64,000 bases of DNA from contig JAITUC010000009.1 of NCBI GenBank assembly GCA_031286585.1, positions 248,001-312,000 of the forward strand. The letters run 5' to 3'. Source of the stretch: Delftia acidovorans (lineage in GTDB: Bacteria > Pseudomonadota > Gammaproteobacteria > Burkholderiales > Burkholderiaceae_C). Positions 17,940 to 32,243 of this stretch are shown here, piece after piece. Both the position numbers and the translations under genes were made by a program. The stretch's first letter is position 1. Every line of letters begins with the position of its first letter. Below the pieces are notes generated by a model. It was not told the DNA's origin and ran no database searches. It saw nothing but the letters and a program-made list of their open reading frames with translations.

Positions 17940-18953
17940 ATGCAGGATATCAAGGGCCAGGATCTCAAGACCATTCTCCATTCCAAGCGCGCCAACATCT
18001 ATTACCTTGAGCACTGCCGTGTCCTGGTCAATGGCGGGCGTGTGGAATATGTGACCGATGCCGGCAAGCGAAGCCTGTATTGGAGTATTCCCATTGCCAA
18101 CACCACCAGCATCCTGCTGGGCACCGGCACATCCATCACGCAGGCGGCCATGCGGGAACTGGCCAAGGCCGGGGTGCTGGTGGGCTTTTGCGGTGGCGGC
18201 GGCACGCCTTTGTTCAGCGCCAATGAAGTCGATGTGGAAGTCGCCTGGCTGACTCCGCAAAGCGAATACCGGCCCACCGAATACCTTCAGGCGTGGGTCC
18301 GGTTCTGGTTCGACGAGGAATTGCGCCTGCACGCGGCCCGGCAATTGCAGGCCTGCCGATTGCAGCGGCTGCAGCAGGAATGGGGTGCACGTGCCTTGCG
18401 TGAATCCGGCTTTGCCGTGGATATGGAACGCCTGAAGGCGCTGGTGCAGCAATTCACGGCGCTGCTGGCCAATGCGCCCGATGTGATGACACTGCTGACC
18501 GATGAGGCACGGCTGACCAAGGCCTTGTTCAAGCTCGCCGTGGACGCCGTGGGATATGGCGAATTCACGCGCGCCAAGCGCGGCACCGGCACCGATGCAG
18601 CCAACCGGTATCTGGACCATGGCAACTACCTGGCCTACGGACTGGGCGCCACGGCCACCTGGGTGCTGGGCCTGCCCCACGGCCTGGCCGTGCTCCATGG
18701 CAAGACGCGGCGTGGTGGCCTGGTGTTCGACGCTGCCGACCTGGTCAAGGATGCGGCCATCCTGCCGCAGGCCTTTCTGTCGGCCATGCGCGGCGACGAC
18801 GAGCAGCAGTTCCGTCGCCAATGCATTGAGGCCCTTACGCGCAGCGAATCGCTGGACTTCATCATCGACACGCTCAAGCGCATTGCCGTCGACACGGCGC
18901 GCATTGCCAGTGCACCCGCCACACCTGCCGCTGCGCAGGAGGCCGGCACATGA
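17940..18953 (+). CDS. cas1: Type I-F CRISPR integrase Cas1
   Basis: A 337-residue Cas1f. The metal-binding catalytic residues are E189 (TDEARL), H253 (LHGKTRRGG), D264 and D267 (FDAADLVKD), matching the I-F family positions. With Cas2-3 it integrates new spacers at the leader end. The ATG at 17940 has a GGGAGGC site upstream. The stop overlaps the cas2-3 start by 4 bp (ATGA), so Cas1 and Cas2-3 are translationally coupled as in other I-F systems. The promoter must lie in the 66 bp after the preceding terminator. Confidence 0.97.
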   Translation: MQDIKGQDLKTILHSKRANIYYLEHCRVLVNGGRVEYVTDAGKRSLYWSIPIANTTSILLGTGTSITQAAMRELAKAGVLVGFCGGGGTPLFSANEVDVEVAWLTPQSEYRPTEYLQAWVRFWFDEELRLHAARQLQACRLQRLQQEWGARALRESGFAVDMERLKALVQQFTALLANAPDVMTLLTDEARLTKALFKLAVDAVGYGEFTRAKRGTGTDAANRYLDHGNYLAYGLGATATWVLGLPHGLAVLHGKTRRGGLVFDAADLVKDAAILPQAFLSAMRGDDEQQFRRQCIEALTRSESLDFIIDTLKRIAVDTARIASAPATPAAAQEAGT

Positions 18954-21900
18954 ACGTGCTCTTCGTCTCCCAATGCAGCAAGCGCGCCCTCACCGAAACG
19001 CGCCGCATCCTGGACCAGTTTGCCGAGCGGCGCGGCGATCGCACCTGGCAGACGGTCATCACGGCGGCCGGGCTCGACACCGTGCGCAAGCTGCTGCGCC
19101 AGAGCGCGCGCAAGAACACCGCCGTGGCCTGCCACTGGATACGCGGGCGCGACCACAGCGAACTGCTGTGGATCGTGGGCGACGGGCGCCAGTTCAACGC
19201 CGAAGGCGCCGTGCCCACCAACACCACGGCCAGCAACGTGCTGCGCGCCGAAGATGAAAGCCACTGGCACCACCTGCCACTGATCACGGCACTGGCCGCT
19301 TTGGCGGCCCTGGTGCATGACCTGGGAAAGGCCACCAGAGCCTTCCAGGACAGGCTCAGGAACCCGGGCTTGCGCGAGCGCAACCACTATCGCCATGAAT
19401 GGGTGTCCGTGCGGCTGTTCCAGGCCTTTGTGGGCCGGGATGAAGATGCGGCCTGGCTGCGGCGTCTGGCCGAAGACGGTACCGATGCCCAGGCCTTCGA
19501 GAAGCAGTGGACCCAACCGCTGCTGCGGGACGGCATCGACGAGCCGCAGGCCATGAACCTGCTGCCCTTTGCAGCGCTGCAGCACGCACCGCTGGCCCAG
19601 GCCGTGGCCTGGCTGGTACTGACCCATCACCGGCTGCCCTGCATGCCCGTGCCGAACGGCCGGCAGGCATCCGACGACGAGCTGGAGACTGATCGCCGCG
19701 AATACTGCCGCTTCGGCGCACGTCCCCGCTTTGTCAACAGCAATGAGATCGAGCAACTGCTGCAGCGCATCAGCGCCGACTGGAACGAGCCGCGCGAGAA
19801 AGCCGAGCCGGCGAAGGTACAGGCCCATTGGGATTTTCCGCAAGGCCTTCCGGTGTCCACGGTAGCCTGGCGAAAGCAGGCGGCGCGCTACGCGCTCAAG
19901 CTGCAGGAGCTGGCGGGCCGGTCCCTGGACGCTGCAAGCCTGGGCGATCCGTTCACGCTGCACCTCTCGCGCCTGTGCCTGATGCTGGCCGACCACCACT
20001 ACTCCAGCATCGAGGACGAAGCGCGCCGCCAGCCTTTCCGCAACGCGGGCTATCCGCTGTATGCCAACACCCGGCGCAAGAGTGCAGCTTCCGGCGCCGC
20101 GTCCGCTTTCAACCAGACGCTGGACGAACACCTGCTGGGCGTGCAGGCCCATGCCACGCTGGTAGCGCGCTCGCTGCCCACACTGGCGCGCAGCCTGCCG
20201 GCACTGCGCAGCCATCGCGGCCTCAAGAAGCGCAGCAGCAACGCGCGCTTCCAGTGGCAGGACAAGGCCGCCGACCTGGCCGCCAGCGTGCGCCACCGGG
20301 CCGCCAGCCAGGGCGGCTTCATCGTCAACATGGCTTCCACCGGCTGCGGCAAGACGCTGGGCAATGCCCGCATCATGAACGCGCTGGCTGACCCGGGCGT
20401 GGGCATGCGCTGTGCCTTCGCCATCGGCCTGCGCACGCTCACGCTGCAGACGGGGCGGGTGTTCCAGAACGACCTGGGCCTGGGCGACGACCAGCTCGCC
20501 ATCAAGGTTGGCGGCGCGGCCAGCCGTGCGCTGTTCGAGTACTGGGAAGCGCAGGCCGAGGCCACGGGTTCCGCTTCGCGCCAGGCGCTGCTCGACGAAG
20601 GCGGCCAGGTCCTGTTCGACGGCAATGACCATCACCCGCTGCTGCAGCGGCTGACCGACGATGCGCAGGTGCGCTCGCTGATCGCCGCGCCCGTGCTGGC
20701 CTGCACCGTGGACCACCTCACGCCCGCCACCGAAAGCCTGCGCGGCGGCCGCCAGATCGCGCCCATGCTGCGCCTCATGACGGGCGACCTGGTACTGGAC
20801 GAGCCCGATGATTTCGACATGGCCGACCTGCCCGCGCTCACGCGGCTCGTGCACTGGGCGGGCCTGCTCGGCTCGCGCGTGCTGCTGTCCTCGGCCACCT
20901 TGCCCCCGGCGCTGGTGGAAGGGCTGTACCTTGCCTACCGCGCCGGGCGCGAAGTCTTCCAGCGGCACCGTGGCGAGCGGCCCGGCGAGCCCGTTGCCAT
21001 CTGCTGCCTGTGGGTGGACGAATTCCACCAGCAGATGCTGGACTGCGCCGATGGCGCGGGGTTTTGCACAGGCCATGAAGGCTTCGTGCAAAAGCGCGTG
21101 GCCCAGCTCGCCAAGGCCGAGGTGCGGCGCCTGGCTGCCATCGCTGCGCTGCCTGCCGGCTGGCAGGGGCTGGACACGGCCACGCGGCGCCGGGATTTTG
21201 CGCGCATCGCGCTGGAGCATGCATGGCAGTTGCACCAGCAGCCGCGCAACCATGGCATCGACCCCGCCAGCGGCAAGCACGTGAGCTTCGGCCTCATCCG
21301 CATGGCTAACATTGAACCGCTGTTCGACGTGGCCGTGGCCATGTACGGCCAGGGCGCTCCCGCGCCGGGCGTGCGCGTGCACCTGTGCGTCTACCACTCG
21401 CAGTTTCCGCTGCTGGCGCGCTCCAGCATCGAGCGGCAACTGGACACCGTACTGGACCGCCGCTCCTCCGACGGCGCAGACCCCATCTTCCAGAGGCCGG
21501 CCATCCGCGCATTGCTTGATGCCAACGATGAGGCCGATCACCTCTTCATCGTGCTCGGCTCACCCGTCACCGAAGTGGGCCGCGACCATGACTATGACTG
21601 GGCCGTGGTCGAGCCCTCGTCCATGCGCTCGCTGATCCAGCTGGCCGGACGCGTGCGGCGCCACCGGCCGGGTGCGGTGCAGGAGGCCAACATACGGGTG
21701 CTGGACAGCAACCTGCGCGCTTTCGAGCATCCAGGCCGGGCGGCGTTCTGCAAGCCGGGTTTCGAGATGGAGCCGGTGAATGACAAGGCGGATACGGCGC
21801 GGTACTTCCACCTGCGTTCGCATGACCTGCAATCGCTGCTGGCCAAGCACACCCAGGGCGAGCCCGTCTGGCCCGTGGACGCCCGCGCCCGCATCGACGT

Positions 21901-22423
21901 GGTCAGGGAGCAGTTCCACCCGGCGAGGAACCTCGTGGACCTGGAACACGCCCGCATGCACGACACCATGCTGCCGCGCCCCACAGACAGCCCGGATGCC
22001 ACGCCGGTGCTGCGCGCCGCCAGCCTGCACTGGGCCAGCCCTGCCTGCTTCTGGCTCACGGGCCTGCTGCCGCAGTTCCAGCGCTTTCGCTACGACCCGC
22101 TGCCGCGCGTGGATGTGGTGTTTCTGCCGGACGAGGAGGAAGAGGGCCTGCAGTTGCACCGCGTGGTCGATGGCCAGCGGCGAGGAGAGAAGCTGTATGT
22201 GCTTGTGCAGGACAGCCTGCTGTACCGGGAGCCATTGGACCCACGGAAGGGGACGGTCACTGCATGGGGGCAGGCCGACCTGATGCGGGAACTGGTTGCC
22301 CTGGCGGAGGGCAAGGGACTGGCGCTGGATGCCTGTGCAAGCAAGTACGCCACGGCCAGCCTGCCAGACAAGGCACAGGGCTGGCGCTGGCATGGCGTGC
22401 TGGGCTTTGTGGGCCGGGCCTGA
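18950..22423 (+). CDS. cas3: Cas2-Cas3 fusion nuclease/helicase, type I-F
   Basis: A 1157-residue fusion. Residues 1-95 are a Cas2 domain (MNVLFVSQCS start). The HD nuclease follows with LVHDLGKATRAFQ at 121-133, NHYRHEW and LTHHRLP. The SF2 helicase has Walker A STGCGKT near residue 465, the DExx-type LVLDEPDDFD near 615, SSATLPP motif III, and QLAGRVRRHR motif VI. All catalytic motifs appear intact. It is recruited by the Csy complex to degrade target DNA and, bound to Cas1, serves adaptation. Its stop is only 3 bp from the stop of convergent higA; there is no terminator between them. Confidence 0.97.
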   Translation: MNVLFVSQCSKRALTETRRILDQFAERRGDRTWQTVITAAGLDTVRKLLRQSARKNTAVACHWIRGRDHSELLWIVGDGRQFNAEGAVPTNTTASNVLRAEDESHWHHLPLITALAALAALVHDLGKATRAFQDRLRNPGLRERNHYRHEWVSVRLFQAFVGRDEDAAWLRRLAEDGTDAQAFEKQWTQPLLRDGIDEPQAMNLLPFAALQHAPLAQAVAWLVLTHHRLPCMPVPNGRQASDDELETDRREYCRFGARPRFVNSNEIEQLLQRISADWNEPREKAEPAKVQAHWDFPQGLPVSTVAWRKQAARYALKLQELAGRSLDAASLGDPFTLHLSRLCLMLADHHYSSIEDEARRQPFRNAGYPLYANTRRKSAASGAASAFNQTLDEHLLGVQAHATLVARSLPTLARSLPALRSHRGLKKRSSNARFQWQDKAADLAASVRHRAASQGGFIVNMASTGCGKTLGNARIMNALADPGVGMRCAFAIGLRTLTLQTGRVFQNDLGLGDDQLAIKVGGAASRALFEYWEAQAEATGSASRQALLDEGGQVLFDGNDHHPLLQRLTDDAQVRSLIAAPVLACTVDHLTPATESLRGGRQIAPMLRLMTGDLVLDEPDDFDMADLPALTRLVHWAGLLGSRVLLSSATLPPALVEGLYLAYRAGREVFQRHRGERPGEPVAICCLWVDEFHQQMLDCADGAGFCTGHEGFVQKRVAQLAKAEVRRLAAIAALPAGWQGLDTATRRRDFARIALEHAWQLHQQPRNHGIDPASGKHVSFGLIRMANIEPLFDVAVAMYGQGAPAPGVRVHLCVYHSQFPLLARSSIERQLDTVLDRRSSDGADPIFQRPAIRALLDANDEADHLFIVLGSPVTEVGRDHDYDWAVVEPSSMRSLIQLAGRVRRHRPGAVQEANIRVLDSNLRAFEHPGRAAFCKPGFEMEPVNDKADTARYFHLRSHDLQSLLAKHTQGEPVWPVDARARIDVVREQFHPARNLVDLEHARMHDTMLPRPTDSPDATPVLRAASLHWASPACFWLTGLLPQFQRFRYDPLPRVDVVFLPDEEEEGLQLHRVVDGQRRGEKLYVLVQDSLLYREPLDPRKGTVTAWGQADLMRELVALAEGKGLALDACASKYATASLPDKAQGWRWHGVLGFVGRA

Positions 22424-22426
22424 GGA

Positions 22427-22738
22427 TCAGGCGGTATGGAGTTGCATCGGATGAACTTGCCTCACGGACGCCTGCAACTCCGAGTTCAGCTCTGCCGTGC
22501 GCAGGTCGTAGGCGGTTTGAAGGTTCAGCCAGGACTGCGCGTCGCCACCAAAGAAGCGGCTCAGCCGCAGCGCCGTGTCGGCCGTGATGCCGCGCCGCTC
22601 CAGCACGATGTCGTTCACGCGCGAGGCGGGAACGTGCAGGTGCCTGGCAAGCGCGTTGGCGCTCATGTCCATGGGCTTCAGGTAGTCCTCGCGCAGGACT
22701 TCACCTGGGTGTATGGGGCGCATGCCGTTTTTAAGCAT
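22427..22738 (-). CDS. higA: HigA-type antitoxin (HTH XRE)
   Basis: A 103-residue antitoxin of the HigA/VapI family. The opening MRPIHPGEVLREDYLKPM is the family signature, followed by the helix-turn-helix (ANALARHLHVPASRVNDIVLER) and ITADTALRLSRFFGGDAQSWLNLQ. It should bind and neutralise HigB and repress the operon through its HTH. The start at 22738 has CAGGAG 7 bases upstream. It follows higB by 81 bp, an unusually long gap for such pairs, and that gap contains a CRISPR-repeat-like hairpin. It is convergent with cas2-3, stops 3 bp apart. Confidence 0.93.
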   Translation of the reverse strand: MLKNGMRPIHPGEVLREDYLKPMDMSANALARHLHVPASRVNDIVLERRGITADTALRLSRFFGGDAQSWLNLQTAYDLRTAELNSELQASVRQVHPMQLHTA

Positions 22739-22776
22739 GTCTTTCTCCTGTGCCCCTCATTGCCGGGAGGCGCCGG

Positions 22777-22804
22777 TTCCCAAGCCGCCTATGCGGCAGC
22801 GTTG
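22777..22804 (-). repeat. CRISPR-repeat-like element between higB and higA
   Basis: Read on the minus strand from 22804 to 22777, this element aligns without gaps to the array repeat with 21 of 28 identities. Repeat positions 4-18 are identical in a row (CGCTGCCGCATAGGC). Mismatches are at positions 1-3, 19, 23, 24 and 26. The Cas6f stem CTGCC/GGCAG with loop GCATA becomes CTGCC/GGCGG, keeping four Watson-Crick pairs plus one U-G wobble, and the bottom C6-G20 pair is kept. It starts 15 bases after the higB stop and ends 38 bases before the higA start, on the higBA mRNA strand. By a rough uniform-base estimate a 15-base match in an 81-base gap has odds near 2 in a million. Cleavage by Csy4 would fall after base 22785. 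Confidence 0.8.
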
Positions 22805-22819
22805 GTGTGTCATTGCTCG

Positions 22820-23101
22820 TCAGTGGTAATCCACTATCTCTACGTCAACCACTCCCTTTTCCGTCCAGACAAAGCAGACGCGCCACTGGTCATTGATGCG
22901 GATGCTGTGCTGTCCTTGCCGATCTCCCACAAGCATTTCCAGGCGATTGCCAGGAGGGCTGCGCAGGAACTCAAGTGTCACAGCCGCATCCAGCTGGGCC
23001 AGCTTGCGCTCTGCCACGTTCTGAATGTTGGCGAAGCGGCGGGTCTTGCCGCTGATGAACAGGCGCTGTGTCTCTGGGCACTTGAAGGAAGTGATCGCCA
23101 T
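22820..23101 (-). CDS. higB: HigB/RelE-type toxin
   Basis: A 93-residue toxin of the RelE/HigB mRNA-interferase family. It begins MAITSFKCPETQRLF and carries FANIQNVAERKLAQLDAA, LRSPPGNRLEML, GQHSIRINDQWRVCFVW and ends VEIVDYH; the basic and aromatic core is intact, so it is probably active at the ribosome. The gene order toxin-then-antitoxin is typical of HigBA. A TATAAA box 12 bases upstream of the ATG would give a near-leaderless transcript. It is divergent from csy1 across 166 bp. It interrupts the cas cluster on the opposite strand. Confidence 0.92.
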   Translation of the reverse strand: MAITSFKCPETQRLFISGKTRRFANIQNVAERKLAQLDAAVTLEFLRSPPGNRLEMLVGDRQGQHSIRINDQWRVCFVWTEKGVVDVEIVDYH

Positions 23102-23114
23102 AAGTCAGGAATTT

Positions 23115-23140
23115 TATACCGTTTACCGTTATTCGGTATA
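23115..23140. promoter_or_regulatory. Dyad operator between higB and csy1
   Basis: Inverted repeat TATACCG (23115-23121) and CGGTATA (23134-23140) with a 12-base spacer. It overlaps the likely higB -10 box (TATAAA on the minus strand, 23113-23118) and lies 14 bp from the higB start. HigA antitoxins typically bind such dyads to autoregulate. Because the same 166-bp gap must also contain the promoter of csy1-csy4 (a TATATC occurs at 23137-23142 on the plus strand), HigA could affect both directions. Confidence 0.65.
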
Positions 23141-23267
23141 TCGCTTTGCAGCAGAAAGGAAACGAAGCTTAGAGGAGCAAGACCACACACACCGTTCATT
23201 GAAGGACATCGTTGCAGACCGCGCAGATCGTGGTTTGGATCTGAATTTCTTGCAAGGAGGAGACGCA

Positions 23268-24617
23268 ATGCCGCCAACCCCAAGCGCCATGCGTTGGCAT
23301 GACGCCATCGCCATCTTTATCCAGGAACGGCTTCAGGCCAAGCTGGACAAGCTGGCCGAAGACCACCCCAAACGACAGGAGCTGTTGGCTCAGCACCAGC
23401 GCGATACCTGGATGGAAGACGCCGCCCGCCGGGTGACGCAAATCCAGGCCGTCACCCACTCCCTCAAGCCCATACACCCCGATGCGCGCGGCACCAATCT
23501 CTATGTGGAGCCAGCCAGCCTGCCAGCGCTGCAGGAACTGGGCAGCCATGCGCTGGGGCAGTCCTTCTCTGGCGACGTGGTGGGCAATGCGGCGGCGCTC
23601 GACGTCTACAAGTTCCTCAAGGTCGAAGTGGACGGCACCAGCCTGCTGGCCGCGCTGCTGGCACAGGACCCGGGCGCGCTCCAGGCCCTGCATGACGATC
23701 CGGCGCAGGCCATGGACCTGCGCGATGCCTTCATCGGCCTGACCCGGCCGCGCGCGGGCGCGCCCAGTTCGCACACGCGGGCCAAGCAGTTGTACTGGCT
23801 GACGGGCAGCGATGCCTGCGCCGATGAAGGCTATGAATTGCTGGCACCGTTGTTTGCCACCTCTCTTGCACATGCCGTGCATGCGCAGGTGCAGGAGGCC
23901 CGCTTTGGCGACACCAACAAGGCGGCCCGGCAGGCGCGGCGCGAGCGCAAGGCGCATGACGGCGTCTTCCATGACTACCCGGGGCTGGCCGTCCAGAAGA
24001 TGGGAGGGACAAAGCCACAGAATATTTCCCAGCTCAACAGCGAGCGTGGCGGGGTCAACTACCTGCTGGCGTCGCTGCCGCCGGTCTGGCGCAGCAGCGA
24101 TGTACGGTTGCCAACACATGCCAGCTCCGTGTTCGACAAGCTGTTCATCGGCCGTCCCGAGGTGCGCAGCACGGTGCGCAAGCTGCGGGCTTTCCTTGCG
24201 ACAGACCCGGAGCCCAACCTGCAAACGCGCGAGCGCCGCGAAGCCTTCATCGACGCGCTGATCGATGAAATGGTCTCTCTCGCAGGCGAAGTGCAGCAGG
24301 CCCTGCCCGCTGGCTGGAGCCGCGATTCGGAACGCTTCGGCAAGCTGGTGCGTGAAGAGCAATTGTGGCTGGACCCATTGCGCGCCGAACTGCGCGATGA
24401 GGCAGATTTCGCCCGCGAATGGCTTTGGATGGACTGGCCTGCCGAGGTGGGCAAGCGCTTTGCCAACTGGCTCAACAGCCAGCTCTTCGGCCTGTTGCCC
24501 GTGGGAGACGCCGAGGCGCGCGTGTGGAAGAAAGAGCTGCTGACCGATGAGGATGGTTTTGTGCAGCAGTTGCGCGAACTGCGCAAACGGCTTGAAGGCA
24601 GGGAGGACGCGCAATGA
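23268..24617 (+). CDS. csy1: Csy1 (Cas8f), large subunit of the I-F complex
   Basis: A 449-residue protein that, with Csy2, caps the crRNA 5' handle and recognises the CC PAM. The ATG at 23268 is chosen for its strong site AAGGAGGA at 23254-23261; an open frame extends upstream but has no family similarity. Typical segments include GNAAALDVYKFLKVEVDGTSLL, KPQNISQLNSERGG and LFIGRPEVR. Length is close to the family (about 430). The stop overlaps csy2 by 4 bp. The promoter of the csy operon must lie between 23102 and 23267. Confidence 0.95.
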   Translation: MPPTPSAMRWHDAIAIFIQERLQAKLDKLAEDHPKRQELLAQHQRDTWMEDAARRVTQIQAVTHSLKPIHPDARGTNLYVEPASLPALQELGSHALGQSFSGDVVGNAAALDVYKFLKVEVDGTSLLAALLAQDPGALQALHDDPAQAMDLRDAFIGLTRPRAGAPSSHTRAKQLYWLTGSDACADEGYELLAPLFATSLAHAVHAQVQEARFGDTNKAARQARRERKAHDGVFHDYPGLAVQKMGGTKPQNISQLNSERGGVNYLLASLPPVWRSSDVRLPTHASSVFDKLFIGRPEVRSTVRKLRAFLATDPEPNLQTRERREAFIDALIDEMVSLAGEVQQALPAGWSRDSERFGKLVREEQLWLDPLRAELRDEADFAREWLWMDWPAEVGKRFANWLNSQLFGLLPVGDAEARVWKKELLTDEDGFVQQLRELRKRLEGREDAQ

Positions 24618-25750: not shown

Positions 25751-26779
25751 ATGTCCAGCACCCTCAAGACCGCATCCGTCCTCGCCTTCGAACGCAAGCT
25801 CGATCCCTCTGACGCCGTCTTCCACGCAGGCAACTGGGATGACCGGGCGGCATCCGCCTCCTGGCCCTCCGTCAAGCTGCGCGAGAAATCCGTGCGCGGC
25901 ACCATCTCCAACCGCCTCAAGACCAAGGACCAGGACCCGGCCAAGCTCGACGCCGCCATCGAGAACCCCAACCTGCAGACCGTGGACGTGGCCGCCCTGC
26001 CTGCCGATGCCGACACGCTCAAGGTGCAGTTCACGCTGCGCGTGCTGTCTGGCGCGGGCACGCCGTCTGCCTGCAACAGCGCCGAATACCAGGCCAGGCT
26101 CGCGCAAACCGTGCAGGCCTATGCCTCGGCCCAGGGCTTTGCCGAACTGGCCAACCGCTATGCGGCCAACCTGGCGAACGGGCGCTTCCTGTGGCGCAAC
26201 CGCGTGGGCGCGGAAAGCGTGCAGGTGCAGGTGGTGCAGCTCAAGGATGGCAAGGCCGGGCAGGCATGGTCGTTCGATGCGCTGGCCCACAACCTGCGCA
26301 CGCTGGAGCAGCCTGATGAGAAAGTGGCTGCGTTGGGCAGCGTGATCGCGCAAGGGCTTGAGGGCAAGGCCCATGTGCTGCTGCAGATCACGGCCTTTGT
26401 GCGCCTGGGCGCGGGCCAGGAAGTCTTCCCCTCGCAGGAACTGATCCTCGACAAGGGCAGCACCAAAAAGAGCAAGACGCTCTACCAGATCGGTGAGAAA
26501 GGCCAGGAGGTCGCCGCCATCCACTCCCAGAAAATCGGCAACGCCCTGCGCACCATCGACACCTGGTACGACGGCGCGCAGGACCTGGGCCCCATCGCGG
26601 TCGAGCCCTACGGCTCCGTCACCACCCAGGGCAAGGCCTGGCGCCAGCCCAAGCAAAAGCAGGACTTCTACACCCTGCTGGACGACTGGCTGCTCAAGGA
26701 CAAGGTGCCGCCCGTCGAGCAGCAGCACTTCGTGATGGCCGTGCTGATCCGCGGTGGTGTCTTCGGCGATGCGAGCTGA
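25751..26779 (+). CDS. csy3: Csy3 (Cas7f), backbone subunit
   Basis: A 342-residue Cas7f, six copies of which coat the crRNA spacer. It opens with [18 protein letters not shown] and has the family regions [16 protein letters not shown] and [12 protein letters not shown]. Length equals the Pseudomonas protein. The ATG at 25751 follows AAAGGATTG. The stop overlaps the csy4 start by 1 base (TGATG). Confidence 0.96.
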
Positions 26780-27351
26780 TGGCCATGACCTCGCACTACA
26801 TCGACATCACGCTGCTGCCTGACCCGGAATTCAGCCACGCCCACCTGCTGGGCGCGCTGGTCGCCAAGCTGCACCGCGCGCTCGTGCAACTGGGCAGTGC
26901 TGACATAGGCATCAGCTTTCCCGGCTACAGCCTGCGACCACGCACTCTGGGCACCATACTGCGCCTGCATGGCAGTGAAGCCGCGCTGCGCGGCCTGATG
27001 GAGCAGCCCTGGCTGCAGGGCATGCGCGATCACGTGCACTGCACGCCGCCAGCTTTGGTACCAGAGGGCGCCGTGCCCTACCTGGTGCAACGCCGGCAAT
27101 TCAAGACCAGCCCCGACCGCCTGCGCCGCCGCCGCATGCGGCGCAAGGGAGAAACCGCAGAACAGGCTGCGGCCGCCATCCCCGACAGCGTGGAGCGCAC
27201 CCCGAACCTGCCCTACGTTCAACTGCGCAGCGCCAGCACCGGCCAGCCGTTTTGCCTGTTCGTGGAGCAGAAAGCGGTGCAGGGCACGGTGGGCCAGGAA
27301 GGCTTCAACACCTACGGGCTGAGCCTGGGAACTGCTGTTCCCTGGTTCTGA
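26779..27351 (+). CDS. csy4: Csy4 (Cas6f), crRNA endonuclease
   Basis: A 190-residue endoribonuclease that cuts pre-crRNA at the 3' base of the repeat hairpin and stays bound. The catalytic histidine of the family corresponds to H32 in AKLHRAL; the serine partner lies in QLRSASTGQ; the RNA-binding arginine helix is RLRRRRMRRKG; the ending TAVPWF is conserved. All key residues appear present, so the array and possibly the repeat-like hairpin in higBA RNA are candidate substrates. The leader starts right after its stop. Confidence 0.96.
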   Translation: MAMTSHYIDITLLPDPEFSHAHLLGALVAKLHRALVQLGSADIGISFPGYSLRPRTLGTILRLHGSEAALRGLMEQPWLQGMRDHVHCTPPALVPEGAVPYLVQRRQFKTSPDRLRRRRMRRKGETAEQAAAAIPDSVERTPNLPYVQLRSASTGQPFCLFVEQKAVQGTVGQEGFNTYGLSLGTAVPWF

Positions 27352-27481: not shown

Positions 27482-30400
27482 GTTCGCTGCCGCATAGGCA
27501 GCTCAGAAAATGTCCCGCACTTGGTGCGCCGCCCTGCCCGAGTTCGCTGCCGCATAGGCAGCTCAGAAATGCTGGGCCTTTTCCAGGCTGCCAGGCGGGA
27601 TGTTCGCTGCCGCATAGGCAGCTCAGAAAACCGAGCGTAGCCAGTCGTCCATGCATGCCAAGTTCGCTGCCGCATAGGCAGCTCAGAAAGCTTCGAAGTC
27701 GATCACGCTGAAGACCTACCTGTTCGCTGCCGCATAGGCAGCTCAGAAAAGCGAGGCGCGAGCCGATACCAAGCGCCTCGAGTTCGCTGCCGCATAGGCA
27801 GCTCAGAAAACCAGCGCCGCCAATAAACCGTTGACCCCCTTGGAGTTCGCTGCCGCATAGGCAGCTCAGAAAGACACACCTCCCCTGCTGTCCCTGCGCG
27901 TCACGTTCGCTGCCGCATAGGCAGCTCAGAAACGAAGCTGCCAGCGGATTGGCAGGACAAGCGAGTTCGCTGCCGCATAGGCAGCTCAGAAATATCTCAA
28001 CGAGCACGCGAACGCCAGCAACCAGTTCGCTGCCGCATAGGCAGCTCAGAAACACATCATTGCGTCCGATGGGCCTGGCGAAGTGTTCGCTGCCGCATAG
28101 GCAGCTCAGAAAAAGGCCCAGGCCGAGCCGCCGGCCGAGCCCACGTTCGCTGCCGCATAGGCAGCTCAGAAAACCTCGAACGCATCCATGGGCAGGTTGA
28201 CCAGGTTCGCTGCCGCATAGGCAGCTCAGAAAATGACGACGACAACGCTGTAGGGCTCCTCGCCGTTCGCTGCCGCATAGGCAGCTCAGAAAAGACTTTC
28301 ACTGGTTGCAGGTGGGCAAGTACCGTTCGCTGCCGCATAGGCAGCTCAGAAAACGGGCGGCACGGCCGGCTACGTGGCCAAGTAGTTCGCTGCCGCATAG
28401 GCAGCTCAGAAACGGAACACCAGCCCGTTCAGGCGGCCCCAGCCGTTCGCTGCCGCATAGGCAGCTCAGAAATCTCGGCAGTCGATCTTCAGTTGCTTGA
28501 GCAGGTTCGCTGCCGCATAGGCAGCTCAGAAAACCTGGTTGAGCACGATGCGCGCGATCTTCTTGTTCGCTGCCGCATAGGCAGCTCAGAAAAGACCCTG
28601 GCGCCGCGGGCCTGGCTGACCGAGGTTCGCTGCCGCATAGGCAGCTCAGAAACTGCAGGTTGCGCATGCGCTCAGCCATGGCCTGTTCGCTGCCGCATAG
28701 GCAGCTCAGAAACGTCCACATCGCTCGGAAAAACCCCCAGCCCGGGTTCGCTGCCGCATAGGCAGCTCAGAAAATCCACCAGGGCGCCACGGTAGGCATC
28801 CCAGAGTTCGCTGCCGCATAGGCAGCTCAGAAATCGCTGCTGCGCATTCAAGAGGCGTACAGCACGTTCGCTGCCGCATAGGCAGCTCAGAAATTGAGAA
28901 ACAGCAGGGCGGTCGCTTTTCCCCAGTTCGCTGCCGCATAGGCAGCTCAGAAATGCTGAGCCTTGAACGATGCGAGCGCGTCTTCGTTCGCTGCCGCATA
29001 GGCAGCTCAGAAAAGCACGAACGAGTAGCGCTGCAGACCGCAGAGGTTCGCTGCCGCATAGGCAGCTCAGAAACACCAGCGCCCGGGATTGTGTCGGCCG
29101 ACGTGCGTTCGCTGCCGCATAGGCAGCTCAGAAAAGCACGGCCGATGCGCGCCCTGAAAAATCCCTGTTCGCTGCCGCATAGGCAGCTCAGAAATCGCCG
29201 AGAAGGCCCTCAAGAAATCCACGGGAGTTCGCTGCCGCATAGGCAGCTCAGAAAAGGGTCACAGGGGCGGTCTGCGTGGTGCGGTAGTTCGCTGCCGCAT
29301 AGGCAGCTCAGAAAACTGATGGGGGACTCTGCATCCGGCATCATGCGTTCGCTGCCGCATAGGCAGCTCAGAAAATAGGGCGACGTGAACTGGATGCTGC
29401 CTTCTTGTTCGCTGCCGCATAGGCAGCTCAGAAAGCGAGTGGGCCAGCCTGCCTGGCAGCCCATACGTTCGCTGCCGCATAGGCAGCTCAGAAAACAGGC
29501 TTTCGTCTCGCAAATCCCAGAAACACGTTCGCTGCCGCATAGGCAGCTCAGAAAAGTTCTCCGAGCCGATGCCGCCCGAGCTGGTCGTTCGCTGCCGCAT
29601 AGGCAGCTCAGAAAAGCTTCGAGGCTGAGCACGTCGTGCTGGGCTCGTTCGCTGCCGCATAGGCAGCTCAGAAAAACCGCTACCCGGAGGGCATCAATGC
29701 TGCCTGGTTCGCTGCCGCATAGGCAGCTCAGAAAATTGACGACTTTGCAGCGCGCCACGGCAATGCGTTCGCTGCCGCATAGGCAGCTCAGAAAGCCTGA
29801 CCCCCTCCCCCGGCTCGTAGCCGGGGGTTCGCTGCCGCATAGGCAGCTCAGAAACGACCAATTGCCATCCCTGGCTTGGGGCGGCAGTTCGCTGCCGCAT
29901 AGGCAGCTCAGAAATCAACTACCTGCTGTTCGTCCGCAATCACGGCGTTCGCTGCCGCATAGGCAGCTCAGAAATGCCCAAGAAGAACCGTGACGCCTTG
30001 CGCTGGGTTCGCTGCCGCATAGGCAGCTCAGAAAACGCGCTCTAGCTCGTCTCGCGGCTTCGGCAGGTTCGCTGCCGCATAGGCAGCTCAGAAAACCTCC
30101 ATCACCTCGCATCTTGATCAGGATATGTTCGCTGCCGCATAGGCAGCTCAGAAAATCCCGAGAGGGCGGCCAAGTCCTTGCACTGCGTTCGCTGCCGCAT
30201 AGGCAGCTCAGAAATGCCAGCGTGCGTTCGATCGGCTTGAAGCCCTGTTCGCTGCCGCATAGGCAGCTCAGAAATTTGCAGACGCGCAGAACGGGCAGGG
30301 CAGCAGGTTCGCTGCCGCATAGGCAGCTCAGAAATGCGCATTCCCTATCTGTGATGGCCCTGGCTAGTTCGCTGCCGCATAGGCAGCTCAGAAAAGCACG

Positions 30401-32243
30401 CGTTTTTGATCTAGCCCCAGCTGGGCGTTCGCTGCCGCATAGGCAGCTCAGAAAATGAAAGAACGACCGATCCTGTTCAGTGGGCCGTTCGCTGCCGCAT
30501 AGGCAGCTCAGAAACGAAAATTGCCGCGTTGCGCAGCGTCTCATCAGTTCGCTGCCGCATAGGCAGCTCAGAAAATCAAAAAGATAGGGCAAAAAACCCC
30601 CACCACGTTCGCTGCCGCATAGGCAGCTCAGAAAAATCTGAGGACCGATGAGTGGGATGTTGCGCAGTTCGCTGCCGCATAGGCAGCTCAGAAAATCGGC
30701 GCTGTCCAGCCGGCCGCCTTGAGCGCGTTCGCTGCCGCATAGGCAGCTCAGAAAAGACGGCACAGGTAGGACATCAGGTCGGTCGGGTTCGCTGCCGCAT
30801 AGGCAGCTCAGAAATTGCCCTTGGCAGACTGGGCGCCGTTGAGCGTGTTCGCTGCCGCATAGGCAGCTCAGAAACCGAACTTCTCTCTCTTGAGCATGCC
30901 TGAGTGGTTCGCTGCCGCATAGGCAGCTCAGAAAAGCATGGCGCGCTGGCCAGCGCTGCCTGATTCCGTTCGCTGCCGCATAGGCAGCTCAGAAAGTCGC
31001 GCAGCGGATGTGTTCGGGGTTCAGGCAGTTCGCTGCCGCATAGGCAGCTCAGAAATGTGCCGCCACAGGGCTTGCAGGTCTTGTTGCTGTTCGCTGCCGC
31101 ATAGGCAGCTCAGAAAAGCCCTTCCAGGACTTCGCGCGGCCACCCTTGGTTCGCTGCCGCATAGGCAGCTCAGAAAGTGATCGATGGGGGAGTGCTCGCG
31201 CGCAAGCAGTTCGCTGCCGCATAGGCAGCTCAGAAAGCAGTCGTGCGTCGTCTCGGCCACGGCATAGCGTTCGCTGCCGCATAGGCAGCTCAGAAACCTC
31301 CCCTGCTGTCCCTGCGCGTCACGGACGTGTTCGCTGCCGCATAGGCAGCTCAGAAATCCGGGCCCAGGAGAAAGGACAGACCCCGTGAGTTCGCTGCCGC
31401 ATAGGCAGCTCAGAAAAGCTGCCCATCAGCTCCAGCGCTGGGTCTATGGTTCGCTGCCGCATAGGCAGCTCAGAAAACCACCACCGAGGACCACCATGGC
31501 CTTTGAACGTTCGCTGCCGCATAGGCAGCTCAGAAAATACATCAAGCCCGGCGGCGAGCTTGAGGTCGGTTCGCTGCCGCATAGGCAGCTCAGAAATGCA
31601 GCGCATCAGCACCTTGCTCAACTCGATCGTTCGCTGCCGCATAGGCAGCTCAGAAAACGATGAGAAAAAGTCCAAGCCGAGCACTCTCGTTCGCTGCCGC
31701 ATAGGCAGCTCAGAAAAGCGGAACTGGTCGGACGGGTCAGCGTTCAGGGTTCGCTGCCGCATAGGCAGCTCAGAAAAGTTCCCCGGAGGCCGCAAGCATC
31801 CAGACCGTGTTCGCTGCCGCATAGGCAGCTCAGAAATCCAGATTGACGCCATCGTCCTCAACGGCATTGTTCGCTGCCGCATAGGCAGCTCAGAAACTCC
31901 ACCGGCTCGCCGCGCTGTGCGTTGATGCGTTCGCTGCCGCATAGGCAGCTCAGAAAAGGCCGCCCAGGTCTTCGACGGCCTCATCGACGTTCGCTGCCGC
32001 ATAGGCAGCTCAGAAAAATGCGCTGCAGTGGTGTTGATGACGTGGCCTGTTCGCTGCCGCATAGGCAGCTCAGAAAAGCAACGAAGTCATCGGGCCAGCC
32101 GCTCTCAAGTTCGCTGCCGCATAGGCAGCTCAGAAAAGGCGCAAGCGCGGCAGCTTCTTCGGCTCAGGGTTCGCTGCCGCATAGGCAGCTCAGAAATACG
32201 GGTACTCAGCGCATGACCTAGGCCCAGGGTTCGCTGCCGCATA
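27482..32243 (+). CRISPR. Type I-F CRISPR array, 79 spacers
   Basis: 79 complete 28-bp repeats plus one truncated terminal repeat enclose 79 spacers. The repeat begins GTTCGCTGCC and ends AGCTCAGAAA, with the Cas6f stem CTGCC/GGCAG around loop GCATA. All full repeats look identical by eye. Spacers are 32 bp except four of 33 bp (spacers 21, 27, 58, 60) and one of 35 bp (spacer 6, 27810-27844). Orientation is plus: the leader is next to csy4 and repeat degeneration is at the far end. Spacers 7 and 64 share 26 bp. Spacer 39 contains a 9-bp hairpin. Many spacers read as plausible coding fragments. Long open frames across the array on both strands are repeat artefacts. Confidence 0.99.
32229..32243 (+). 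repeat. Truncated terminal CRISPR repeat
   Basis: Only the first 15 bases of the repeat (GTTCGCTGCCGCATA) remain; the 3' half of the stem and the 5' handle are lost. Without GGCAG it cannot form the Cas6f hairpin, so the last crRNA (spacer 79) would lack a defined 3' end. Marks the ancestral end of the array. Confidence 0.9.

Follow-up and report, generated by a model that had tools for sequence, protein, structure and literature searches.

A predicted HigBA toxin-antitoxin pair resides within a type I-F CRISPR-Cas locus, and its message carries, between toxin and antitoxin genes, a stem-loop of the Cas6f type, found again in related loci. This hairpin is a predicted site for Csy4 to grip or cut, which would likely silence the toxin part of the message while the CRISPR system is intact; we put this reading forward tentatively, with a confidence a little short of even.

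The higBA pair and the element between its genes

Profile searches identified in the window (the whole stretch of 64,000 nucleotides analysed here) a type I-F locus consisting of cas1, cas2-3, csy1-4 and a 79-repeat array (Table 1). Both coordinates and profile matches agree with the original prediction that higBA lies antisense between cas2-3 and csy1, and the contig, 314 kb long, carries the element between its two genes inside the cas locus that belongs to the genome itself. The pair was assigned to the HigBA type II systems, with PF05015 and TIGR02607 both above cut-off and the toxin gene first, toxicity being predicted; among NCBIfam profiles no family was assigned to the window HigB. Operator-like blocks stand before higB in relatives as well.

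Table 1. Coordinates of the features discussed, as positions of the window
Feature	Position	Strand	Remarks
cas2-3	18950..22423	+	TIGR02562
higA, predicted antitoxin, 103 aa	22427..22738	-	TIGR02607 1.7e-33; PF01381
Second hairpin block CCGGCGCCTCCCGGCAATGAGGGGCA	22751..22776	-	common to leaders of phage-type genes
CRISPR-repeat-like element ('psiR3') between higB and higA, CAACGCTGCCGCATAGGCGGCTTGGGAA	22777..22804	-	21/28 to array repeat
Cas6f-type stem-loop of the element	22785-22799	-	predicted Csy4 cut after 22785
higB, predicted RelE/HigB-type toxin, 93 aa	22820..23101	-	PF05015 1.2e-16; PDB 6f8s_B 'Putative Killer protein' 4.5e-38
Probable HigA operator (ACCGAATAACGGT) and -10-like TATAAAAT before higB	23111..23137	-	read from sequence; putative function
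Possible decayed psiR2 (CTGCTGCAAAGCGAT)	23140..23154	-	relatives L159, L161, L164 and L195 read CTGCCGCATAGGCAG there
csy1	23268..24617	+	PF09611 / TIGR02564; start codon 23268 set by comparison with relatives
csy4 (cas6f), presumed reader of the element	26779..27351	+	PF09618 / TIGR02563
I-F CRISPR array	27482..32196	+	79 copies with exact 23-nt repeat core

The gap between higB and higA spans 81 nt (stop codon excluded). As had been claimed, the element CAACGCTGCCGCATAGGCGGCTTGGGAA in this gap resembles the array repeat GTTCGCTGCCGCATAGGCAGCTCAGAAA, with 21 of 28 identical positions including a contiguous run of 15 (CGCTGCCGCATAGGC). The stem is likewise as described: every one of positions 6-10 and 16-20 is paired, U7-G19 being a wobble, and the bond between C6 and G20 is retained. 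The first description needs a single correction, namely that the predicted fold of the element exceeds the Cas6f stem and runs past the cut site because the flanking CCAA and TTGG also pair. With 9 of the 10 Cas6f letters and five pairs, the stem shows what characterises a Racr-type solitary repeat, a Cas6f stem with C6-G20. The next-best site in the window outside the array matched the repeat at only 17 of 28 positions, and of the 80 copies of the 14-mer GCTGCCGCATAGGC in the 6.04-Mb genome, 79 belong to the array and the remaining one to the gap element. The probability of the likeness arising by chance was about 5e-6 (81-nt gap, both strands, base composition), and roughly 1.5e-6 in simulations even when a perfect 6-bp hairpin in register was granted. 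No Rfam family matched across 22400-23200, nor did any plasmid sequence match the window gap.

Residues 5-190 of the window Csy4, the presumed reader of the element, align with solved Csy4 chains, e.g. 2xli. Arg102 and Gln104 of P. aeruginosa Csy4, which we take to be the contacts for G20 and A19, align with R and Q in the window protein. The window element has G19 in place of A19; as the contact residues are present, this change may weaken binding.

The gap hairpin in related loci

Csy1 searches brought the number of I-F genomes in the family to 58. Of these, 16 came from the 53 of the genus; a family sample of 399 gave 43, of which 41 were additional because G000 and G052 had been counted with the genus; and the last, G447, was the single addition from 9 in the genus of G147. 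Further Csy1 searches added no genome. L200, a second copy of L147's place, was excluded from the counts. The fetched flank of L147, L166, L175, L178 and L180 stops short of cas2-3, so that features there were placed only as 'upstream of csy1'. Reading frames were listed in 12 of the 58 gaps, mostly the longer ones.

Both higB and higA stand between cas2-3 and csy1 in seven of the 58 loci: the window, L159 (G370), L161 (G147), L164 (G394), L191 (G427), L195 (G333) and L207 (G447). HigB of the six relatives is 80-88% identical to that of the window, and in a tree of 97 rows and 93 columns the seven CRISPR-resident HigBs fall on one side of a single branch (99/89; 100% of 200 bootstrap trees, the bootstrap having not settled), L191 branching off first. 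The pair and the cas genes may not always have moved together, as suggested by L195, in which identity to the window counterpart is only 50% for Csy1 but 87% for HigB, and 90% for Cas1 in its best-aligned part. The I-F locus of this genome (L195/L201) is a mosaic with a breakpoint perhaps near the toxin-antitoxin gap. Two more loci, L138 (G032) and L141 (G037), hold higA without higB in the same gap, as if the antitoxin gene were useful by itself, perhaps in regulating the csy promoter.

The original prediction raised the question of repeat-like elements between higB and higA in other I-F loci, and such elements are present in several of them. The exact Cas6f stem CTGCC-N5-GGCAG is present in L164, L195 and L207, with loops GCTTA, GTATG and GTACA respectively, and is followed by CTCAA in two of them and by CTCAG in one. 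L161 carries a five-pair variant with 8 of 10 letters (TTGCC-GCCTA-GGCGG). The gap of L159 has a decayed stem at chance level (7/10), and that of L191, 30 nt long, has no element; L191 is also the locus in which csy1 lies in two pieces (L191/L204). C6-G20 was kept in five of the six loci having both higB and an element, L161 carrying U-G. In G032, which has lost higB and whose array repeat is the same as that of the window, both C6-G20 and the stem are broken. Exact or five-pair stems in the gaps of relatives support a candidate Csy4 site in the higBA message.

When each gap was shuffled 20000 times, its score was reached once for L164, never for L195 and L207, and in 130, 573 and 4803 shuffles for the window, L161 and L159. 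Among 88 control entries of higBA gaps outside I-F loci (a few loci counted twice; median 18 nt, shorter than the CRISPR-resident gaps), none reached 9/10 or 10/10, and the two at 8/10 have 4 and 3 pairs. The seven higBA pairs of viral contigs have short gaps. A chance likeness of an ordinary hairpin would be helped by the GC-rich gap, in which hairpins are common, and by the L159 score; the low simulated odds, the uniqueness of the element in the genome outside the array and its recurrence in the same gap of relatives nevertheless make this explanation hardly credible.

We then compared the parts of the 28-mer with each other. Across six rows (L191 being omitted for want of an element), pairwise column identity was 124/150 (83%) in the stem, 38/75 in the loop, 25/75 in the 5′ part and 47/120 in the 3′ tail, the non-stem parts thus being 33-51% conserved. 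Random sets of ten columns were as conserved as the stem in 3 of 20000 draws. Adding L138 (G032), which belongs to the covariation alignment and stands outside the six-row count, gave a stem identity of 168/210 in seven rows. Judged by these columns, the conserved portion is the Cas6f stem and not the handle needed by a guide. As the 3′ tail is unconserved, we read the element as a docking or cutting site and not as a guide handle.

In the seven elements including that of G032, 33 of 35 stem cells were paired, with slid partners at 11-57%, and no pair was altered on both sides. The paired cells and covariation score were matched by 130 of 500 shuffles, since the stem columns vary little. Arrays were read in five of the seven higBA loci (window, G147, G333, G427 and G447), all with the same CTGCC/GGCAG stem, hence stem letters cannot discriminate tracking of the locus's own array. 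The loop of the element equals that of its own array in the window and departs from it in the other three of four loci with both read (element/array: GTATG/GGATA in G333, GCCTA/GCATA in G147, GTACA/GCATA in G447).

Guides and leader block around the pair

Of the 58 loci, 32 have a CreA/CreR-type guide between cas2-3 and csy1; no guide was detected in the 58 reversed gaps or in 290 shuffled ones. The score looked for a handle-like 8-mer followed by 17 nt matching a CC-flanked site in the same gap, with 13-15 matches at the 15 positions other than every sixth, and gaps were limited to 1100 nt for the count. Six genus examples were tested against 1000 shuffles each, and the published creTA of Acinetobacter LoGeW2-3 stood out in the shuffle form of the test. 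Guides with a mismatch at every sixth base were seen in L135, L136, L137, L141, L142, L146 and others. Caballeronia sp. M1242 carries a plasmid I-F locus without annotation (L112) that has one CreA/CreR-type guide between cas2-3 and csy1. Beyond the family, in an order sample of 300, none of 15 csy1 genomes had higBA, and one had a guide when scored in the same way. The scan of these genomes left aside L220 and L226, each an additional piece of a split gene, and the flanks of L213 and L225 end before cas2-3.

At least 12 of the 58 family loci bear toxin-antitoxin pairs, HigBA included, upstream of csy1, and 11 of these 12 have a guide. The other families at this place (L169, L182, L166, L178, L175 and L113) were by Pfam BrnT with a CopG-like partner (below the Pfam cut-off), NTP_transf_2 with HepT, FitA-like with PIN, AbiEi/AbiEii, and PIN. 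On Vitreoscilla pVF1, VapC and XRE genes are annotated in the corresponding place.

A guide precedes higB in six of the seven higBA loci, the window being the exception. In these six relatives its closing repeat (psiR2) lies directly before the probable HigA operator, and its target lies away from the higB promoter, between guide and csy1. The window had neither a guide nor the CC-flanked partial target that marks CreTA and CrePA, and no 17-mer of the window gap gave a guide-like match. The comparison with CreTA made in the original prediction calls for caution, the guide being present beside the other six pairs and absent from the window; its wider interpretation is partly supported, in that the recurrence of repeat-like gap elements favours a Csy4 site in the higBA message. 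We also read the window element as a guide in its own right, comparing 18-33 nt before it and 16-32 nt after it with CC-flanked gap sites, and found nothing beyond shuffles (lowest fraction 0.1). An insertion of higB between psiR1 and psiR2 of a guide was likewise discarded, since visual inspection of the window showed no remaining psiR1 towards csy1.

The abundance of guides in this very gap raises another explanation, that the element is the leftover closing repeat (psiR2-like) of a CreA/CreR mini-CRISPR, stranded by rearrangement and functionless now. Degeneration of creA repeats has been described (PMC9458426; PMC8501985). In G037, Caballeronia and Vitreoscilla the stem-loop of psiR2 is retained (13, 13 and 14 of 15 positions) and the handle lost (3, 2 and 3 of 8), and the window element has 14/15 and 5/8, with no guide beside it; the Acinetobacter psiR2 keeps both (14/15 and 8/8). 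A relic, however, would not be expected to keep its stem exact while loop and flanks diverge, as is the case in L164, L195 and L207, and in the same three loci a psiR2 before higB coexists with the gap element. We therefore regard a functionless leftover as unlikely, though a serious competitor.

The block CCGGCGCCTCCCGGCAATGAGGGGCA between element and higA raises a different question. It is also present in L009, L010 and nine viral-contig stretches; a two-hairpin leader, made of a freely variable first hairpin and then CCGGCGCCTCCCGGCAATGAGGGGCA, stands before unrelated phage-type genes (L009, L010, L100-L108). Among phage sequences only this leader block was matched, in two Acidovorax phages, and no Csy1 was confirmed on the viral contigs. 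In the window the second block is present and the repeat-like first hairpin ends 3 nt ahead of it, compared with about 0-1 nt in most other leaders. Could the element be an ordinary leader hairpin that acts without Csy4 on the translation of higA or the stability of the message, and resembles CRISPR by inheritance or accident? Its place just ahead of a block whose first hairpin varies freely elsewhere, the same block with a different hairpin in G032 and a stem longer than the Cas6f stem would fit. Yet the block occurs between element and higA only in the window and, altered, in G032; the six other higBA loci are without it, and a five-pair hairpin is nonetheless present in four of these, made of the exact Cas6f letters in three. 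Together with a chance of about 1e-6 for the window likeness, this makes a Csy4-independent hairpin improbable. A phage-type leader as the whole explanation was overturned by these relatives, which have the hairpin without the block.

A possible tie between Csy4, Csy3 and the toxin message

One of the closest known counterparts of the gap element is RacrIF1, a solitary I-F repeat. Cas6f binds and cuts it, which C6G/G20C abolishes, and remains on the cleaved product. Upstream of the cut, Cas7f oligomers then form along the RNA even in the absence of a 5′ handle (PMC10651486). Both RacrIF1 and the window element consist of a single I-F stem-loop without 5′ handle in which C6-G20 is important or retained; RacrIF1 is a phage-borne decoy (PMC10651486), whereas the window element lies between toxin and antitoxin frames inside a cas locus.

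By analogy with RacrIF1, a mechanism can be proposed for the higBA message. Csy4 would bind, cut 3′ of the stem and stay on the higB fragment. The RNA upstream of the stem being higB, Csy3 (Cas7f) would then coat the toxin frame so that HigB is not made, and higA would be freed as a separate message. The unconserved 3′ tail of the element agrees with such a scheme. The coating of an mRNA by Cas7f is here an analogy. Loss, inhibition or titration of Csy4 or Csy3 would free higB, and the pair would serve as a guard or an anti-CRISPR alarm; the cell might in this way become dependent on CRISPR. The fullest form of this scheme is a HigBA lineage hosted by type I-F loci, with a Cas6f-split message: the toxin message would be held by Csy4 at its 3′ end and silenced by a coat of Csy3, the immune complex would act as a second, RNA-level antitoxin, and loss or inhibition of either subunit would fire the toxin guide-free. 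We consider that full form doubtful.

Several observations weigh against a Csy4 site of this kind: the window copy has G19 and a predicted stem extended past the cut site, L191 has no element, those of L159 and G032 are decayed, compensatory changes are absent, and loops depart from the arrays in three of four loci. In addition, the seven loci are related by descent and form a small sample, and the control gaps are shorter. The window looks like a drifted member of the set, and with its drifted element and missing guide a function is less certain here than in G333, G394 and G447.

RacrIF1 suggests also that the element could be a decoy, diverting Csy4 and Csy3 and so tuning the CRISPR system whenever higBA is transcribed. 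RacrIF1 is indeed such a lone I-F repeat, bound by both Cas6f and Cas7f (PMC10651486), and HigA relatives are present in viral contigs. But the element sits in the genome's own cas locus, inside a toxin-antitoxin operon that is probably self-repressed, and its weaker stem would make a poor decoy; we hold such a role to be very unlikely.

Compared with other systems, the predicted Csy4 site in the higBA message would need no guide. CreTA, CreR and CrePA all act via guides (PMC12737573), as do the CRISPR-guarding toxins described in the papers cited here, through a crRNA-like guide. Acinetobacter I-F CreTA shares with the window the place between cas3 and csy1 and repeat-like elements opposite to the cas strand; it needs Csy4, and addiction to CRISPR is the proposed shared aim (PMC10097628). 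In that system the CRISPR effector, directed by a CreA guide, represses an RNA toxin (PMC10097628), whereas the toxin candidate of the window is the protein-coding higB, of the HigB family and with its own antitoxin, and the element lies within the operon with no guide. Similarly, CrePA brings a protein toxin into the orbit of the CRISPR effector, with CreP typically KilA-N, an RNA guide as antitoxin and promoter repression (PMC12737573); the window has instead a type II pair and a predicted Cas6f site in the message. The guides that accompany six of the higBA pairs share the CreR/CreA build, CreR being autorepressors (PMC12737573), with their target on the csy1 side; the gap element, unlike them, is not part of such a guide.

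If the proposed mechanism is true, a protein toxin-antitoxin pair would be tied directly to the RNA-processing subunits and would sense their loss or inhibition at once, which would help to explain why toxin-antitoxin pairs gather between cas2-3 and csy1. Among the literature matches listed, titles and abstract starts mentioned no Cas6 site in a protein toxin-antitoxin message, and nothing was found on HigBA combined with CRISPR, type I-F and csy1, most subscription papers lying outside the scope of both searches. An engineered parallel exists in a Csy4-based low-background Tet-On system tried with a kid toxin gene, which is reported to control leaky toxic expression post-transcriptionally in insect cells (PMC7773235); the arrangement proposed for the window is natural.
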